Of a DNA stretch of 64,000 nt, positions 2,448 through 11,802 are shown one piece after another. Numbering within the stretch: position 1 is the stretch's first letter; every line of letters begins with the position of its first letter. The translations under genes and the position numbers were made by a program. Source of the stretch: Psychrobacter sp. APC 3281 (GTDB lineage Bacteria > Pseudomonadota > Gammaproteobacteria > Pseudomonadales > Moraxellaceae); assembly GCF_030407815.1 (NCBI RefSeq), contig NZ_JASDCS010000003.1:1-64000 (forward strand). Direction: 5' to 3'. Under the pieces are notes generated by a model. It worked only from the letters and a program-made list of their open reading frames with translations. It was not told where the DNA came from and searched no databases.

Positions 2448-3098
2448 TTACGGAATCAAACTATCTACCAGAAGTTGAATGCTAGTGTTTAATGCCTCAT
2501 TAGCGAACTTCTTATTTCTCAAGCTATGATTACACACCGCTTCAGTTTGAATAGAAAAGTCAGAATAGTGCTGAGTGACTGCCCAAATATGAAAAATCAG
2601 ATGGATGGCAGACACGGACTTAATCTTGTTATCTGCAATCCAGCCATCAATCACTGCCACCTTTTCACGAACCAAAGACCTTAAAGGGCCTTTTAATACG
2701 GCCATCAAATGAGGTGCCCCTTGTATAATCTCTAACGCATATAGTCTCGATGCTGCAGGCGATTTTTTTGAGATTTTATATTTTTCTTCAATATAGGTCT
2801 TAAGGGCAACCTTTGGATCTTGGTTGGCGTTAATCTCACTCAAAGGCAATAGCCACTTACTCAGCACCTTTTCTAAAACAGCAACATACAGAACTTCTTT
2901 ACTTTGAAAGTAATAAAATATATTCGATTTAGATATGTCAGCTTCGTCGGCAATTTGCTCCATGCGCGCGCCATTTAACCCCTCTTGGGAAAATACGATC
3001 AATGCAGCATTAATGATATGTTCTTTCTTTTTTAATATCTTTGCACTCGTCTCTGTCTCTTCTTTTAGTGCGTATTCTTTCACTATATTTTCCCTCAT
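2448..3098 (-). CDS. rutR: TetR-family regulator RutR
   Basis: 216 aa from the ATG at 3098; an upstream TTG at 3140 would add 14 residues, but the shorter form matches the usual length of about 212. The N-terminal TetR helix-turn-helix reads IINAALIVFSQEGLNGARMEQIADEADISKSNIFYYFQSKEVLYVAVL. The C-terminal half (SRLYALEIIQGAPHLM, IDGWIADNKI, HLIFHIWAVTQHYSDF) follows E. coli RutR block for block. RutR represses the rut operon and is released by uracil/thymine. It is divergent from rutA across a 471-bp regulatory gap that holds a fitting operator at 3413-3430. Confidence 0.92.
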   Translation of the reverse strand: MRENIVKEYALKEETETSAKILKKKEHIINAALIVFSQEGLNGARMEQIADEADISKSNIFYYFQSKEVLYVAVLEKVLSKWLLPLSEINANQDPKVALKTYIEEKYKISKKSPAASRLYALEIIQGAPHLMAVLKGPLRSLVREKVAVIDGWIADNKIKSVSAIHLIFHIWAVTQHYSDFSIQTEAVCNHSLRNKKFANEALNTSIQLLVDSLIP

Positions 3099-3350
3099 CG
3101 TAAAGCCAAAAAACCTAGTTTTAAATGATAGTTGATTCAATTTAAAAAAGGGTAGAAGTAACCAAAGGCAGATGCTACTGGTTGATCAAAATAGATATGT
3201 CAACTACTCCAACAGCGAGCAATACCATATCGGTTTGCAGGTTCACTAACTATAGACACCTGCTGTTGACCAGTCTTTTCTGCTGTTCATTCCACCTTAT
3301 CTTCATCCAAACCACCATCAAAATGTACTTATAAACAATTTATACATTTG

Positions 3351-3410
3351 TGCACTATTTTATAACACTTTGCACCAATTTATAACAGCCCGCACTATTT
3401 CTCTGCATAT
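3351..3410 (+). promoter_or_regulatory. Three 20-bp direct repeats with GCAC boxes (putative NtrC/enhancer sites)
   Basis: The boxes TGCACTATTT (3351), TGCACCAATT (3371) and CGCACTATTT (3391) start exactly 20 bp apart, and the first two are followed by TATAACA. Each carries a GCACY core like an NtrC half-site (TGCACYA). Two-helical-turn spacing puts them on one DNA face at about -159, -139 and -119 relative to the start predicted from the -24/-12 element at 3484-3499. NtrC binding is an inference; the repeats themselves are seen directly. Confidence 0.6.
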
Positions 3411-3412
3411 TT

Positions 3413-3430
3413 TTAGACCATATGGTTTAA
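3413..3430 (+). promoter_or_regulatory. RutR operator candidate
   Basis: TTAGACCATATGGTTTAA is an 18-bp near-palindrome with one mismatched pair. It matches the E. coli RutR consensus TTGACCA-N2-TGGTCAA at 11 of 14 specified positions. It lies between the divergent rutR and rutA genes, about 80-97 bp upstream of the predicted rutA transcription start. Confidence 0.7.
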
Positions 3431-3483
3431 TAATTTTTGTATGAAAAAAATATAAGTTATTGATAAATAACAATTAATTAATT

Positions 3484-3499
3484 TGGCATAAATTATGCT
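3484..3499 (+). promoter_or_regulatory. Sigma-54-type -24/-12 promoter of rutA
   Basis: TGGCAT-N5-ATGCT compares with the consensus TGGCAC-N5-TTGCA. The invariant GG (3485-3486) and GC (3497-3498) are exactly at the required spacing. The implied start is near 3510, giving a leader of about 60 bases to the rutA ATG. An upstream in-frame ATG at 3495 lies inside this element, which argues against it as the start codon. E. coli rut is a nitrogen-regulated (NtrC) operon, which fits. Confidence 0.65.
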
Positions 3500-3569
3500 A
3501 CATAAAAAACATGAAATAATCTTTATTTCTTTTATCGCTCTTTTCTTCCTCAAACGTATAGGTGAAATC

Positions 3570-4673
3570 ATGGAAATAGGTATTTTTTGTCCGATTGGCA
3601 ACAATGGTTGGTTAATTTCAAAAAACGCGCCGCAATACAAGCCAACATTTGAGCTTAATAAGCAAATTGTGCAACGTGCTGAGCACTATGGTTTCGATTT
3701 TGCGCTCTCGATGATCAAGCTACGCGGCTTTGGCGGGGAGACGGAGTTTTGGGATTATAACCTTGAAAGCTTTACCTTGATGGCAGGATTAGCTGCGGTC
3801 ACGTCCAAGATAAAAATCTATGCCACATCGGCGACGTTGGTCATGCCACCAGCAATCGTAGCAAGAATGGCATCAACGCTTGATAGCATCTCAAACGGGC
3901 GTTTTGGATTGAATGTCGTGACTGGTTGGCAAGAAGCAGAATACGGACAAATGGGAATGTGGCCAGGCGACGATTATTTTGGTAAGCGCTATGACTACCT
4001 ATCTGAATATGTACAAATTTTAAGAGATCTGTGGGCGACAGGTCAATCTGATTTGAAGGGTGAGTTCTTTCAGATGAATGACTGTCAAGTGAAGCCTATA
4101 CCGAAAGCGGATATGAAGATTATCTGCGCAGGTCAATCAGATACAGGGTTAGCGTTTTCTGCAAAATACGCTGACTATAACTTTGTCTTTGGTAAAGGTC
4201 TGAACACGCCAACTGCCTATGCCGGTATCAATGATCGCTTAAAGGTACATACGGATAAGACGGGTCGTAACGTTCCAACCTATGTCCTCTTTATGGTCAT
4301 TGCCGATGAGACCGATGAAAAAGCCCAAGCAAAATGGCAGTCGTACAATGATGGCGCGGATTTTGAAGCCATTGATTGGCTGCAGTCACAAGGTGGTAAG
4401 GACAAAACCTCAGGCAAAGATACCAACGTTCGCCATATGGCCTCAAGCGTTTCGCCAGTCAATATCAACATGGGTACGCTGGTCGGCTCTTTTGAAAACG
4501 TCGCCAGTATGTTGGACGAAGTCGCTGAAGTACAAGGTACAGATGGCGTTCTATTGACCTTTGATGATTTCGTGCAAGGCGTTGAGGATTTTGGCAGCAG
4601 AATTCAACCGCTGATGCAGAGCCGCATCAATGTCGATACACCAGTGGCCAGCCAAGCTGTCAGCGAAGCCTAA
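3570..4673 (+). CDS. rutA: Pyrimidine monooxygenase RutA
   Basis: 367 aa. A luciferase-like FMN-dependent monooxygenase that opens the uracil ring between N3 and C4 to give (Z)-3-ureidoacrylate peracid, using reduced flavin from RutF. The start [17 protein letters not shown] at 3570 is preceded by AGGTGA; an in-frame ATG 75 bases earlier would overlap the promoter. Family blocks are [60 protein letters not shown] and ICAGQSDTG, all as in E. coli RutA. It is first in the operon and is followed 14 bases later by rutB. Confidence 0.97.
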
Positions 4674-4687
4674 TACAAGGAGCAGAT

Positions 4688-5407
4688 ATGAATTCGGTTA
4701 ATACAATTTGTGCAGACTTTACCAAGGAATCATCTCCTGTTTTAGAGTCGTTGCCTGAACCTATCAAGCTAGATCCATCCCAGACGGCGCTGATCGTCGT
4801 GGACATGCAAAACGCGTATGCCAGCCAAGGTGGTTATCTAGATTTGGCTGGGTTCGATGTCACAGCGACCAAACCCGTCATCGATAAGATAAAGCAGGCC
4901 GTGGATATTGCGCATCAATCTGGCATACAAGTCATCTACTTTAGAAATGGCTGGGACAATAAATATGTGGAGGCTGGTGGTAGTGGGTCGCCCAATTATC
5001 ACAAATCAAATGCCCTAAAAACCATGCGTAAGAATCCTGAAATTGAGGGAACGCTATTAGCAAAAGGGGGCTGGGATTATGAGTTGGTCGACGAGCTTAG
5101 CCCTGCACCTCAAGACATCGTTATAGATAAACCTCGATATAGCGGCTTTGCTAACACTAACTTCGATAGCGTATTGCGATCACGTGGCATACGTAACTTA
5201 TTGCTCACAGGTATCGCGACCAACGTCTGTGTTGAATCGACGCTTCGAGATGGATTTTTCCTTGAGTATTTTGGGGTGTTATTAGATGACGCTTGTTATC
5301 AAGCAGGGCCAGTAGAGGCTCATGAGGCCACACTATATAACGTAAAAACCTTTTTTGGTTGGGTGTCTGATGTTGCCAGCATGCAGCAGTGTTTTACAGA
5401 TAGCTAA
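4688..5407 (+). CDS. rutB: Ureidoacrylate amidohydrolase RutB
   Basis: 239 aa isochorismatase-fold hydrolase that splits the ureidoacrylate product of RutA to carbamate (then ammonia and CO2) and aminoacrylate species. The catalytic triad is visible as Asp39 (VVDMQNAY), Lys148 (DKPRYSGF) and Cys181 ([17 protein letters not shown]). All three are offset by exactly 15 residues from Asp24/Lys133/Cys166 of E. coli RutB, reflecting a longer N-terminus. A ribosome site AAGGAGC precedes the ATG. Second gene of the rut operon. Confidence 0.96.
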
Positions 5408-5482: not shown

Positions 5483-5866
5483 ATGTCTAAACAAGTGATT
5501 ATCCCTGAAGGTACTAGCAAACCATTAGCCCCTTATGTACCCGCTACCAAGGCCGACAACATCGTTTATGTCTCGGGCACCTTGCCCTTTGATGAAAACA
5601 ACGATGTCGTACATGTGGGTGATGCCGCTGCTCAAACCCGCCATGTGTTAACAACGATTCAAAACGTTATTCAAACTGCTGGCGGCGATATGGATGATGT
5701 GACGTTTAATTCAATCTTTGTAAAAGATTGGGCAGATTATGACGCAGTCAATCAAGTCTATGCAGAATTCTTTCCCAATGAAAAGCCAGCAAGATTTTGT
5801 ATCCAATGCGGGTTGGTAAAACCAGACGCTTTGGTCGAAATCGCGTCCATAGCGCACATTGGATAA
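5483..5866 (+). CDS. rutC: RutC, RidA-family 3-aminoacrylate deaminase
   Basis: 127 aa, as in the YjgF/YER057c/UK114 (RidA) family. RutC acts on the aminoacrylate intermediate of the Rut pathway. Visible blocks are the N-terminal [43 protein letters not shown], and the C-terminal [23 protein letters not shown] with the Arg/Cys region of the active-site cleft. AGGA precedes the ATG. In E. coli rutD and rutE follow at once; here they are displaced downstream, leaving a 132-bp gap before rutF. Confidence 0.94.
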
Positions 5867-5998: not shown

Positions 5999-6580
5999 AT
6001 GAATACAGTAATTAAAGAAAGCCAAGTAACGCAATCCTCACTAATGAAACATAAGTCTAAAGAATCATTCACCTCTACGGCAGGAAACTTAACCGACATG
6101 CAGCAGTCTTTTAGAGATGCAATGAGCAAGTTGGCTGCTGCCGTGAACATTATTACCACTGAGGGTCCAGCAGGGCGAGCAGGATTTACCGCCTCAGCAG
6201 TGTGCAGTGTCACTGACGAACCGCCAACCCTATTGGTGTGTCTAAACCGAAGCGCTTCTGTATACAAATTTTTTAAAGAAAATATGGTGCTATGCGTCAA
6301 CACCCTTGGTCTTGAACATAAAGATTTAAGCGGTGTGTTCGGCGGCAAAAAGGCGCTGGAAGAAAGATTTGAGCAAGGCAATTGGTCCACGCTGTCAACC
6401 GGATCGCCTGTATTAGAGGATGCCAGTATTTCTTTTGATTGCAAAATCAAACTCATCAGCTCGGTGGGGACCCACGATATTCTTATTTGTGAAGTATTGG
6501 ATATCAAACACAAGCCTGATTGTGAAAGTCTCATCTATTTCAATCGAGACTACCATCAATTAAGTAAGTGCAAAAACTAA
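5999..6580 (+). CDS. rutF: FMN reductase RutF
   Basis: 193 aa, about 30 residues longer at the N-terminus than E. coli RutF (164 aa). It supplies reduced flavin to RutA from NADH. The flavin-reductase core reads [51 protein letters not shown], followed by [17 protein letters not shown] and [15 protein letters not shown], matching RutF closely. The ribosome site AAAGGAAA fits the ATG at 5999. The extra N-terminus ([12 protein letters not shown] onward) is polar and of unknown use; translation could instead start at an internal Met near the core. Confidence 0.93.
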
Positions 6581-6615
6581 GTATCACACCTCTACTTTTT
6601 TTAAGGATATTCAAA

Positions 6616-7974
6616 ATGGATAAATGGTTTGTGAAATGGCGTCCCTACACCGGGAACCTAGAAACGACACCGGTAGGTATCAATGAATACTTACCAATGG
6701 GTAAAAGTGTGGTGTTAGGCGCACAGCACTCATTTGCAATGTTCGGTGCGACAATCTTAGCTCCCTTACTGATGGGCTTTGATCCTAGTTTGACCATGCT
6801 TATCACTGGTATAGGCACGATACTTTTCTTTCTTATTACTGGTGGTCACGTACCAAGTTATTTGGGCTCTAGTTTTGCATTTATCGGAGCGGTTGCAGCA
6901 GTAACAGGGTATAGCGGCGCTGGTATCAATCCAAATATTGGTATTGCCCTTGGGGGTACTGTTGTCTGCGGAGTTTTATACGCACTGATGGGTCTGCTGG
7001 TGATGAAAACAGGGACAGAGTGGATTGAGAACTTGATGCCACCTGTGGTCACTGGGTCCATCGTCATGATTATCGGGTTGAACTTAGCGCCGGTCACCAT
7101 ACAAAGCGTCATCGGCAGTAGCTTTGACTCTTGGATGGCATTAGTCACCGTATTGTGTATCTGTTCAGTCGCCGTATTTACCAGAGGCATGGTCAGACGC
7201 CTGTTACTGTTAATCGGATTGGTCGCTGCATATTTTATTTATTTCCTATTAACCAATGTATTGGGCATGGGCACGCCTATTGATTTTAGTCCAATTGCAA
7301 ATGCCGCTTGGTTCGGTATTCCAGCCCTTTATTCTCCTGTCTTTGAAACCAGTGCCATATTAGTGATTGCACCCGTCTTTATCATCTTGATCGCTGAAAA
7401 CCTTGGGCATTTCAAAGCAGTAGAAGCCATGACTGGCAAAAGTATCTCACCTTATATGGGTAGAGCATTCTTCGCTGACGGCCTTTGTACCACGCTTTCG
7501 GCTTCGGTAGGCGGCACTGGTATGACGACTTATGCAGAAAACATAGGCGTGATGGCCGCGACCAAAATTTACTCTACAGTCGTCTTTGTCATAGCAGGTG
7601 TTTTTGCAATCTTATTGGGCTTATCCCCTAAGTTTGGAACCTTGGTAAGCACCATCCCAGTGCCTATTTTGACTGGTGCCTCAATCGTTGTCTTTGGTTT
7701 GATTACGATCGCTGGTGCGCGTATTTGGATGAATGCAAAAATTGATTTTAGTAAGAATGGCAATATGTTGGTAGCCGCCGTTCCAGTCATTTTAGGCACT
7801 GGTAACTATTCACTAAACATTGCTGGCTTTGATTTAGGTGGTATCGGTACTGCTACTTTTTTAGCCATTCTTATGAACCTCGCTTTCAATTTTAAAAACA
7901 AACAAAAAGAGGTGAGCGTGACCACTGAGAGAGAAATTGCTACATCAGAGCCGCTCTTAAAACTCAATCCATAA
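6616..7974 (+). CDS. rutG: Pyrimidine permease RutG
   Basis: 452 aa NCS2-family (nucleobase:cation symporter) inner-membrane transporter with about 12-14 hydrophobic segments; predicted to import uracil/thymine. The start MDKWFVKWRPYTGNLETTPVGINEY at 6616 has AAGGA upstream and resembles RutG; a longer frame from 6568 would overlap the end of rutF. Family signatures are GAQHSFAMFGATILAPLLMG, APVFIILIAENLGHFKAVEAMTG (transport-domain Glu/Asn) and SVGGTGMTTYAENIGVM. It lies 35 bases after rutF. Confidence 0.95.
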   Translation: MDKWFVKWRPYTGNLETTPVGINEYLPMGKSVVLGAQHSFAMFGATILAPLLMGFDPSLTMLITGIGTILFFLITGGHVPSYLGSSFAFIGAVAAVTGYSGAGINPNIGIALGGTVVCGVLYALMGLLVMKTGTEWIENLMPPVVTGSIVMIIGLNLAPVTIQSVIGSSFDSWMALVTVLCICSVAVFTRGMVRRLLLLIGLVAAYFIYFLLTNVLGMGTPIDFSPIANAAWFGIPALYSPVFETSAILVIAPVFIILIAENLGHFKAVEAMTGKSISPYMGRAFFADGLCTTLSASVGGTGMTTYAENIGVMAATKIYSTVVFVIAGVFAILLGLSPKFGTLVSTIPVPILTGASIVVFGLITIAGARIWMNAKIDFSKNGNMLVAAVPVILGTGNYSLNIAGFDLGGIGTATFLAILMNLAFNFKNKQKEVSVTTEREIATSEPLLKLNP

Positions 7975-8013: not shown

Positions 8014-9513
8014 ATGAATACAGAACCACGCAGCGTACAACAATTGATCAATGGCGAATTTACCGAATCAACGACCACAGAATGGATTGATATCACCAAT
8101 CCAGCCACTCAAGAAGTTATCGCTAAGGTACCACAATCAACACCTGCGGAAATCGAGCAAGCCATCAAAACAGCATCTGAGGCCTTTCAGAGTTGGCGTG
8201 TCACACCTATCAGCAAACGAGCCCGTGTTTTCTTAAAATATCAACAACTGATACGTGAGCATATGGATGAGCTGGCAGCGCTACTGACTGAAGAACAAGG
8301 TAAGACACTGGCAGATGCTAGAGGTGATGTATTTAGAGGTCTTGAGGTCGTAGAGCACGCATCAGGTATCGGTAACTTGCAGCAAGGTGGCTACATCGAA
8401 AACGTCGCCAGTAGTGTTGATATGTATACCGTGCAGCAGCCAATAGGCGTCTGTGCAGGTATTACTCCCTTTAACTTCCCTGCCATGATACCACTATGGA
8501 TGTTTCCAATGGCCATCGCCACAGGCAACACGTTCATCTTAAAACCCTCTGAACAAAACCCAATCGTTACCATGAGGTTGGTCGAGCTAGCGCTTGAGGC
8601 AGGTATACCAAAAGGGGTATTGAATGTGGTTCATGGCGGTAAATATACCGTGGATGCCCTGTGTGATCACCCTGATATAAAAGCGATATCTTTTGTTGGC
8701 TCAACTGCGGTGGGTAAGCATGTCTATGATCGAGCCGGTCAGGCTGGCAAACGTGTGCAATGTATGATGGGTGCGAAAAACCATGCCGTTATCATGCCTG
8801 ACGCCAATAAAGAACAAAGTCTGAATCAGCTAGCAGGGGCCGCATTTGGTGCAGCAGGGCAGCGATGCATGGCACTGTCTGTCGTGGTATTGGTTGGAGA
8901 GTCTAAACAGTGGGTTGATGAGATTGTAGAAAAATCAGCACAGCTAGTCGTTGCCGCTGGCAAGGATGACAAGGATTTGGGACCTCTAATATCCAAGCAA
9001 GCCAAAGCCCGTGTCGAGCGCTTAATTCAAGCAGGCGTTGACGAAGGGGCAACTCTCAGACTAGATGGCCGTGGTTGTCAGGTAGCAGGCTATGTGGATG
9101 GCAACTTTGTTGGTCCAACTATTTTGGACAATGTAACCACTGATATGAGCTGCTATACCGAAGAGATTTTTGGCCCTGTCCTGTGCATTATGTATGCCGA
9201 CACGCTTGAGGAAGCCATTAAGATTATCAATACCAATCCGAATGGTAATGGCACCGCAATTTTTACTCAGTCTGGCGCTCATGCACACAAGTTCCAACAA
9301 GATATCGATGTTGGACAAGTTGGTATTAATTTACCAATTCCAGTACCGCTACCAATGTTTTCATTTACAGGGTCTAGAGCCAGTAAGCTCGGTGACTTAG
9401 GTCCTTATGGCAAGCAAGCGGTGCAGTTTTATACACAGACCAAAACAGTGATATCACGTTGGTTTGATGAAGATGCTAGTGAAGGCGTAAATACCACTAT
9501 CTCTATGAAGTAG
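8014..9513 (+). CDS. mmsA: CoA-acylating (methyl)malonate-semialdehyde dehydrogenase
   Basis: 499 aa aldehyde dehydrogenase. The nucleophile is Cys285 in GQRCMAL. The general-base Glu of ordinary ALDHs is replaced by Asn in the [13 protein letters not shown] block, both diagnostic of the CoA-acylating MMSDH family. Such enzymes turn (methyl)malonic semialdehyde, NAD+ and CoA into acetyl- or propionyl-CoA plus CO2. Its place between rutG (39-bp gap) and ribB inside the Rut locus suggests it takes malonic semialdehyde, the RutD-stage product, to acetyl-CoA in parallel with RutE. A role in valine or beta-alanine breakdown is the alternative. Confidence 0.9.
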
Positions 9514-9621
9514 CTGTACGGCCTATCAAACGTAGGACGTTATGTAGAGCGCGTGATTGATTGATAATAGGCTCTACATAACAACATACAAAAGCAAATA
9601 TAAATGCAAATGGTGGATTTT

Positions 9622-10329
9622 ATGAATATCAATACAATACCAGAAATCATTGAAGATATTAAAGCAGGCAAGATGGTCATAATCATGGATGATGAGGATA
9701 GAGAAAACGAAGGTGACCTGATCATGGCAGCCACTTTAGCCAAACCTGATGATATCAATTTTATGATCACCCATGCCAGAGGTTTGGTTTGTTTGACCTT
9801 GACCTCCGAACGTTGTAAAAAATTAAAACTACCTCTCATGTGCAAAGACAACCAAGCACCTTACAGTACAAATTTCACCGTTTCAATTGATGCAGCAAAA
9901 GGCGTAAGTACCGGAATATCAACGGCAGACAGAGCTCGGACTATCAGAACTGCCGTGTCTCAAGACGTTACTTTTGATGACGTCGTAACCCCAGGCCATA
10001 TTTTTCCATTAGTGGCTAAAGAAGGTGGTGTCTTAGAGCGGGCTGGGCATACGGAGGCAGGTTGTGATCTAACGAGACTGGCTGGTTTAGAACCTGCTGC
10101 GGTTATTGTAGAGATTATCAATCAAGATGGTGAAATGGCTCGTAGAAATGATCTGATGAAATTCGCCGATACTCATAACCTAAAGGTCGGCACCATAGAC
10201 GCGTTAATTAAATATATTAAATCTCAAGAGGCCATCGAGAGTAAAGGTGAAAGCGAAGTCGAAAATTTCGAAGAAACCGTAGCGTATGAATATGATGAAA
10301 GCGATGAGCGTACCGCTGAATTGATTTAG
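9622..10329 (+). CDS. ribB: 3,4-dihydroxy-2-butanone 4-phosphate synthase RibB
   Basis: 235 aa from the ATG at 9622, which has GGTGGA four bases upstream; in-frame ATGs at 9604 and 9610 would add six or four residues. It makes the four-carbon unit of riboflavin from ribulose 5-phosphate. Motifs are [16 protein letters not shown] (metal and substrate acids), [22 protein letters not shown] and [14 protein letters not shown]. There is no RibA domain; instead an acidic tail of about 35 residues follows the core. No FMN riboswitch fits in the 90-bp gap upstream. Its location in the rut operon suggests dedicated flavin supply. Confidence 0.93.
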
Positions 10330-10410: not shown

Positions 10411-11187
10411 ATGTTAGTTAAAAAATATCCTTGTAAGAACGACACGTCAGAAATGGTCGTATTTAGTTCAGGTTTAGGCGGGCATGCTGATTTTTGGTTA
10501 CCTCAAATTGAGAGTTTTACCGAGCATTATAATGTGATTTGTTACGAACAAGAGGGGGTATCAGCTGATAGTGATTTCTTACCCGATGACTATTCTATGC
10601 AAGATTTAGCAGAACAGTTAATTGTAATATTGAAACAAGAAGGGCTTTCTAACTGTCATTTCGTCGGTCACGCACTTGGTGGGTTTATTGGTATGGAAGT
10701 CGCTTATAAAGCGCCAGAATTATTAGATAAACTGGTCATCCTAAATGGTTGGGAAAGCCTAGATCCTCACACTATTAAATGTTTTCGTATGCGAACCAGT
10801 TTGCTACAAGATACAGGGGTAGAAGCATTTGTACGCGCTCAAGCGATATTTTTGTACCCGCCGATATGGATCTCAGACAACATAGACGTACTCACGCAAA
10901 AAGAAGATAAAGCCATCGCTAACTTTGCTCCCGTTAAGAACGTCTTAACGAGATTAAAAGCCTTGCAGGCTTATCAACCTCTGATAAACGCTAAGCATAT
11001 CAAAAATAAAACGCTAGTTTTAAGCAACCTCGATGATGTTTTGGTGCCATGGCAACGCGGTCTGGCTTTAGCTGAAAATATGCAGAATGCTCAATTTGAG
11101 TTGATGGTGACAGGTGGCCATGCCAGTACAATCACAGAGACCTGCTCAACCAATAGCAAAATCCTTCAATTCTTATCCAAAAATTAA
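10411..11187 (+). CDS. rutD: Alpha/beta hydrolase-fold RutD
   Basis: 258 aa. RutD assists aminoacrylate breakdown to malonic semialdehyde in the Rut pathway. Blocks shared with E. coli RutD are VVFSSGLGGHADFWLPQ, DDYSMQDLAEQL, FVGHALGGFIGMEVA, NGWESLDPHTIKCFRMR, AQAIFLYPPIW and the closing GGHAS. The nucleophile elbow is GHALG, with Ala where ordinary hydrolases have Ser, as in E. coli RutD. The promoter side is AT-rich, with no clear ribosome site beyond GGATGAAA. It follows ribB after 81 bp and precedes rutE by 18 bp. Confidence 0.93.
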   Translation: MLVKKYPCKNDTSEMVVFSSGLGGHADFWLPQIESFTEHYNVICYEQEGVSADSDFLPDDYSMQDLAEQLIVILKQEGLSNCHFVGHALGGFIGMEVAYKAPELLDKLVILNGWESLDPHTIKCFRMRTSLLQDTGVEAFVRAQAIFLYPPIWISDNIDVLTQKEDKAIANFAPVKNVLTRLKALQAYQPLINAKHIKNKTLVLSNLDDVLVPWQRGLALAENMQNAQFELMVTGGHASTITETCSTNSKILQFLSKN

Positions 11188-11205: not shown

Positions 11206-11802
11206 ATGACTGATTCCCTATCGTTAACCTCAGAAGGTCTTGACCAACTGTTTGGTAAGGCCAGATCCTTTAATGCTTGGCAAAAAAAAGACGTACCAGA
11301 TGCACTACTTGAAGAGATCTATCACTTAGTTAAAATGGCACCTACCTCGGCCAACTGTTCACCGGCGCGGTTTGTATTTCTTAAATCTGATGACGCTAAA
11401 GCGAAATTAGAGCCAGCACTGTCATCAGGTAATATCGAAAAAACAATGACAGCACCTATCACAGTGATTTTCGCTTATGATGAAGAGTTTTATGAGCAAC
11501 TTCCCAAATTATTCCCACATACGGATGCCAGATCGTGGTTTAACTCTAGCCCTGAACTCATAAAAGAAACGGCGTTTAGAAACAGTTCTATGCAAGCGGC
11601 CTATCTGATTTTGGCTTGTAGAGCCTTGGGTTTAGACACAGGCCCAATGTCTGGATTCAATAATGAACTGGTAGATAAAACCTTTCTTGAGGGTAGCAAA
11701 TGGACTTCAAATCTACTGATTAATATAGGTTATGGTCAAGAAGATCAATTGTATAGCCGTCTGCCAAGATTGGACTTTGATGAGGCTTGTCAGATTTTAT
11801 AA
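11206..11802 (+). CDS. rutE: Malonic semialdehyde reductase RutE (nitroreductase family)
   Basis: 198 aa flavin-dependent oxidoreductase of the nitroreductase fold, reducing malonic semialdehyde to 3-hydroxypropionate. Near-identical blocks to E. coli RutE are [11 protein letters not shown]-like [81 protein letters not shown] and [12 protein letters not shown] lies seven bases before the ATG. It is the last gene of the locus; the terminator-like relic at 11946 is on the opposite strand. Confidence 0.95.

Follow-up and report, generated by a model that had tools for sequence, protein, structure and literature searches.

Expression of the pyrimidine ring-opening (rut) operon in E. coli depends on NtrC under nitrogen limitation (rutAG; PMC10891134). 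The rut promoter is repressed by RutR (PMC10891134, PMC8743547), which recognizes a ~16-bp palindrome and binds between rutA and rutR (PMC10891134). E-sigma54 is bound upstream of rutA in vitro (PMC8743547). For Moraxellaceae, a comparative analysis predicted NtrC regulons; it also predicted RutR regulons, whose motifs are specific to taxa (PMC5343134). A literature search turned up no publication dealing with NtrC and pyrimidines in Psychrobacter. In the E. coli K-12 sequence, two NtrC-like 17-bp dyads are read at -124 (TGCACTCTCATCGCGCA) and -103 (TGCATGTTTTATGTGCA) from the TGG of the sigma-54 element, 21 bp apart, together with a RutR-like site and, at -32, an IHF-like site with one mismatch. 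The rut locus of Psychrobacter sp. APC 3281 shares with E. coli K-12 the divergent rutR and rutA genes, the NtrC-like dyads, the RutR-like site, the position of the IHF-like site and the sigma-54 element. It differs in having three dyads rather than two, in the arms of the dyads, which are more even in E. coli, and in the leader from TGG to the start codon, which is 86 bp in Psychrobacter versus 98 bp in E. coli K-12 (ATGATG start).

The locus was analysed in a window of 64,000 nucleotides, the whole stretch of DNA presented here, from a genome of 3.1 Mb. The promoter region is the divergent interval between a rutR-like gene on the minus strand and rutA on the plus strand. The former (rutR, 2448-3140), which encodes a TetR-family repressor, has RutR, TIGR03613, as its best NCBIfam match (E 4.6e-65), with a profile score of 219 bits that is under the curated cut-off of 368 bits. 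rutA (3570-4673) begins with the ATG at 3570; TIGR03612 (RutA, E 6e-209) aligns from residue 1, and a Shine-Dalgarno sequence, AGGTGA, read at 3560-3565 on the same strand, is conserved in the Psychrobacter alignment. A mechanical ORF start at 3495 was rejected because it falls inside the sigma-54 element and the RutA homology begins only at 3570. Downstream of rutA, all on the plus strand, are rutB (4688-5407; TIGR03614), rutC (5483-5866; TIGR03610), rutF (5999-6580; TIGR03615), rutG (6568-7974; TIGR03616), a methylmalonate/malonate-semialdehyde dehydrogenase gene (8014-9513; TIGR01722), a ribB-type gene (9604-10329; TIGR00506 ribB), rutD (10411-11187; TIGR03611) and rutE, for malonic semialdehyde reductase (11206-11802; NF003768). 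All of these score above the cut-offs of their models except rutG, with 706 bits versus a cut-off of 759. The dehydrogenase and ribB-type genes are thus placed within the rut cluster, between rutG and rutD (8014-10329). The first could handle malonic semialdehyde, and the second could provide flavin for RutA/RutF, an FMN-dependent system.

A predicted sigma-54 promoter, TTGGCATAAATTATGCT, occupies 3483-3499 on the plus strand, the element proper, TGGCATAAATTATGCT, spanning 3484-3499. The -24 GG (3485-3486) and the -12 GC (3497-3498) are separated by exactly 10 bp, as a sequence-only reading of this DNA had claimed. The match to sigma-54 sites is moderate: TGGCAT versus TGGCAC at -24, and ATGC versus TTGC at -12. 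Transcription is predicted to start at 3510 on the plus strand, 12 bp downstream of the -12 GC, according to the established sigma-54 geometry. The genome carries rpoN (TIGR02395, 410 bits, above cut-off) and ntrC (TIGR01818, 653.9 bits versus a cut-off of 558.6).

Three boxes at exact 20-bp steps precede the promoter, at about -159 to -103 relative to the predicted start. The TGCAC, TGCAC and CGCAC boxes do start at 3351, 3371 and 3391, as had been reported; the GCAC to which these positions had been assigned starts one base later, at 3352, 3372 and 3392. Among the 213 GCAC on the plus strand of the 64-kb window, this is the only triple that is evenly spaced at any step of 10-44 bp. On the plus strand, the boxes open three NtrC-like 17-bp dyads: TGCACTATTTTATAACA (3351-3367), with a strong left and a weak right arm, TGCACCAATTTATAACA (3371-3387) and CGCACTATTTCTCTGCA (3391-3407). 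When compared with the dyad consensus (T)GCA(CC)AnnnT(GG)TGC(A), all three left arms match in full (GCACYA). The right arms of boxes 1 and 2, TATAACA, match it at T, C and A only; box 3 has TGCA.

An NtrC half-site matrix was built from five sites of the genome's own glnA (TGCACTATAAAATAGCA, TGCACCAATTAAGTGCC and TGCTCTAATTAAGTGCT) and ureD (TGTACTATTTTGGTGCA and TGCACTGTTATGGACAA; UreD identity confirmed) promoters, a small set chosen by eye, with rut excluded. With this matrix, boxes 1, 2 and 3 rank 1st, 3rd and 84th of the 64,000 window positions. The triple at 20-bp pitch reaches 25.6, and unrelated triples of that pitch elsewhere in the window reach 11.3 at most. A pattern of three GCACYA at 19-21-bp steps occurs once in this genome and 25 times in 100 Psychrobacter genomes, ~15 of these matches being the rut array. 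In a genome-wide search with three mismatches allowed to the NtrC consensus, 111 sites were found versus 85 in the control, a noisy list that nevertheless pointed to ureD and glnA, and a search with the rut-box 17-mers gave no second target in the genome, the other matches being mostly intragenic. Taken with their phasing, three sites at a 20-bp pitch upstream of a sigma-54 promoter, the sequence matches indicate that the boxes are very probably NtrC sites.

rutA is patchy in the genus, being found in about 16 of 100 Psychrobacter species genomes. In an alignment of 14 distinct rutA upstream regions from Psychrobacter, the boxes and the sigma-54 element first picked out in a single genome are both kept. 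Conservation is 0.84-0.99 in the left arms and 0.86-0.98 in the right arms, compared with 0.62-0.76 in the 3-bp spacers between boxes; it is 0.98 for dyad 1 and 0.99 for the left arm of dyad 3. All 14 rows have the sigma-54 GG and GC, the RutR core ACCATATGGT and TTGATAAATA unchanged. Three boxes are usual, also in a diverged relative (G085) where they stand at 20-bp steps beside a rutR-like gene. P. fozii (L010/L081) has two and is short by exactly one 20-bp unit. In NG254, NG25 and NZS113 the last two boxes are 19 bp apart; in NG25 and NZS113 an incomplete fourth box, TGCACTATTAAAAACTT, is present another 19 bp upstream. On the sequences compared, the change in copy number of the 20-bp unit is specific to Psychrobacter, and in the three-copy array a known layout has been elaborated locally. 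It is rather unlikely, though conceivable, that the unit acts as a copy-number dial, whole helical-pitch units being gained or lost (2 to 4) to set the nitrogen threshold or strength of rut, with NtrC assembling in a head-to-tail array over asymmetric sites instead of binding as separate symmetric dimers. In one genome (G027; L017, 1800-2040) the full promoter is intact, yet rutA breaks off after ~104 codons into unrelated AT-rich sequence, which looks like a recent loss or insertion.

The known layout was defined with 81 rutA upstream regions from Psychrobacter, Acinetobacter, Serratia, Yersinia, Variovorax and Pseudacidovorax, which were anchored on the sigma-54 element and grouped into 41 clusters. 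Pairs of NtrC dyads peak at a spacing of 20 bp, the top of 48 spacings (mean best score 16.5 versus 12.8 in shuffles, z 19), the clusters being phylogenetically akin and the dinucleotide shuffles taking no account of kinship. Of the 41 clusters, 31 contain a strong pair spaced 19-21 bp apart, and a quarter have no strong pair. The preferred pair positions, -134, -126/-124 and -114 from TGG, appear to be roughly in helical phase (Rayleigh R 0.6 at period 10, in kin-related clusters). Together with the E. coli dyads, these 20-bp pairs make a tandem two-turn pitch the common enhancer layout of rut. The rutA promoters of Acinetobacter, Serratia and Variovorax resemble that of Psychrobacter in having tandem dyads 19-21 bp apart, a RutR-like operator, an IHF-like site and a sigma-54 element. 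They differ in having mostly two dyads, compared with two to four boxes in Psychrobacter; in addition, the strong arms usually face outward in Acinetobacter and Serratia, whereas in Psychrobacter all of them are upstream. The layout at 3351-3407 had been called unusual, a view that this comparison does not support: in Acinetobacter, Serratia, Variovorax and E. coli, pairs of NtrC-like dyads 19-21 bp apart are the arrangement most often seen in front of rutA. The region is real, conserved, functional-looking and of a known kind, and the arrangement taken for an oddity, a direct-repeat enhancer on one helix face, is for the most part the usual rut layout with duplicated units added.

Two further elements, both within the predicted loop, were overlooked in the sequence-only reading. 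A predicted RutR operator, TAGACCATATGGTTTA, lies between the enhancer and the promoter at 3414-3429 and matches the RutR consensus, TTGACCANNTGGTCAA, at 11 of 14 positions. Its core is invariant in Psychrobacter. Some strains have the GACC arm on the left and others on the right (G3416/T3427 versus A3416/C3427), as would be expected of a symmetric operator. RutR-like sites are found in the expected interval of the 41 clusters with a z of 24 over shuffles that ignore kinship. In the Acinetobacter rutA loci (L090-L134), the RutR-like operator shifts from TTGACCA-N2-TGGTCAA to TTTACYN4RGTAAA, suggesting a changed RutR specificity. The second element is an IHF-like site, TAAGTTATTGATA, at 3453-3465 on the minus strand, its reverse complement fitting WATCAANNNNTTR. 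It too lies between the enhancer and the sigma-54 promoter, where IHF is commonly bound; both this placement and the IHF consensus are described (PMC7962754). The site is 0.94 conserved in the genus, and the genome has an IHF-alpha gene that scores above one model's cut-off. The exact IHF consensus occurs in one orientation, at -30 to -33 from TGG, in 22 of the 41 clusters versus 0.35 expected, and is absent from about half of them.

The boxes had been interpreted as a direct repeat standing in place of NtrC dyads. Each of them is better described as one imperfect 17-bp dyad with a weakened right arm, and the array gives the impression of a direct repeat because all three boxes have their strong arm on the upstream side. 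A true direct-repeat enhancer, in which NtrC would touch only the GCAC arms, head to tail, and leave the TATAACA arms uncontacted, is nevertheless worth considering. The strong arms are co-oriented in all three boxes of Psychrobacter and in both of Variovorax, the right arms of boxes 1 and 2 fit NtrC weakly, and direct-repeat half-sites have a precedent in Nla28 of Myxococcus (PMC9765219). Nla28 enhancers are comparable in that tandem half-sites serve a sigma-54 activator; they are unlike the rut array in that the sites are an unrelated 8-bp CT[C/G]CG[C/G]AG, irregularly spaced, and not NtrC sites. Uncontacted arms would be difficult to reconcile with their conservation: TATAACA is invariant or almost so in boxes 1 and 2 (0.93-0.98) and still has the T and the final CA of an NtrC arm, and the right arm of box 3, CTGCA or ATGCA, is near GTGCA and retains TGCA. 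Furthermore, the strong arm of the homologous dyads in Acinetobacter and Serratia is often on the opposite side, as expected for dimers on asymmetric dyads. The direct-repeat enhancer is therefore judged unlikely. The boxes are interpreted as asymmetric dyads, each probably bound by one NtrC dimer, because the right arms are constrained, the NtrC T and terminal CA are kept, and the weak arm is on either side in homologues. Symmetrical binding by the dimers is not certain, since TATAACA in boxes 1 and 2 fits the NtrC arm poorly.

That the asymmetric dyads bind another sigma-54 activator or some other regulator in place of NtrC appears very unlikely. The genome does have at least one further NtrC-family activator gene (C18:72348-73604), and the 17-mer TGCACYATTTTATAACA, with up to one mismatch, occurs only at rut. 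But the left arms are identical to the NtrC arm of the genome's own glnA and ureD promoters and fit the published NtrC box GCAnnA (PMC8743547), and the NtrC dependence of E. coli rut also argues against a different regulator. A similar question applies to the promoter, for a sigma-70 promoter could drive the operon and the sigma-54-like element be incidental; the region is AT-rich, and the start at 3510 is a prediction. A generic scan of the window for sigma-54 sites with three mismatches found 95 versus 103 expected, with no excess, and is uninformative by itself. Support for the element comes from its conservation instead: GG-N10-GC does not vary within the genus, and essentially every one of the 81 rutA upstream regions contains it, 79 having TGGC[AG]N8GC and the other two TTGGTAT-N6-TTGC. 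A consensus scan of 3130-3600 found no sigma-70-like site, and a sigma-70 origin of the transcript seems extremely improbable.

The preferred reading, with a probability of roughly 0.87, is a composite NtrC/IHF/RutR/sigma-54 control region that gates the rut operon by nitrogen and pyrimidine. Its core, the combination at rutA of a sigma-54 promoter and an NtrC enhancer upstream of it, was correctly recognized in the sequence-only reading and is supported by the genome's own NtrC and RpoN, by conservation within the genus and by the same arrangement in other genera. From elements whose conservation and spacing are directly seen, in a genome with NtrC, RpoN, RutR-like and IHF genes, we infer binding by these proteins, the shape of the loop, gating by RutR and the direction in which the copy number changed. 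Under nitrogen limitation, NtrC-P would occupy the three adjacent imperfect dyads (3351-3407), the 20-bp pitch aligning them along the same helix face and favouring side-by-side assembly of dimers. IHF would bend the DNA at about 3453-3465, allowing NtrC to loop to the RNA polymerase-sigma54 at 3483-3499 and activate transcription from near 3510. RutR at 3414-3429, within the loop, would block activation until removed by uracil or thymine. With NtrC activation and RutR gating combined, the operon would thus need nitrogen shortage and pyrimidine together, an AND gate. The third, and sometimes fourth, box may trace back to a two-dyad ancestor, through gains and losses of the 20-bp unit. The significance is twofold: this two-signal control by NtrC, IHF, RutR and sigma-54 appears to be kept from beta- to gamma-proteobacteria, and the natural Psychrobacter series (2, 3 or 4 units at 19- or 20-bp steps) offers a ready test of how the number and pitch of NtrC sites affect enhancer strength.

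At glnA of the same genome, as at rut, 17-bp NtrC dyads lie upstream of a sigma-54 promoter, but the sites are about 34 and 42 bp apart versus 20-21 bp at rut. The NtrC sites of E. coli glnA have a 32-bp spacing. Upstream of the Psychrobacter urease accessory gene ureD (L058, 1482-1695, contig C3), two NtrC-like sites, one a full dyad and one degenerate, are 19 bp apart and accompanied by a sigma-54-like TTGGCACAGTGCTTGT; a short-pitch tandem may therefore recur outside rut. amtB (L073, 1216-1290, contig C21) has a near-perfect sigma-54 element, TTGGCACAGGTTTTGCT, and its minus-strand TGCAC boxes, spaced by ~21 bp, are found downstream rather than upstream of that element.
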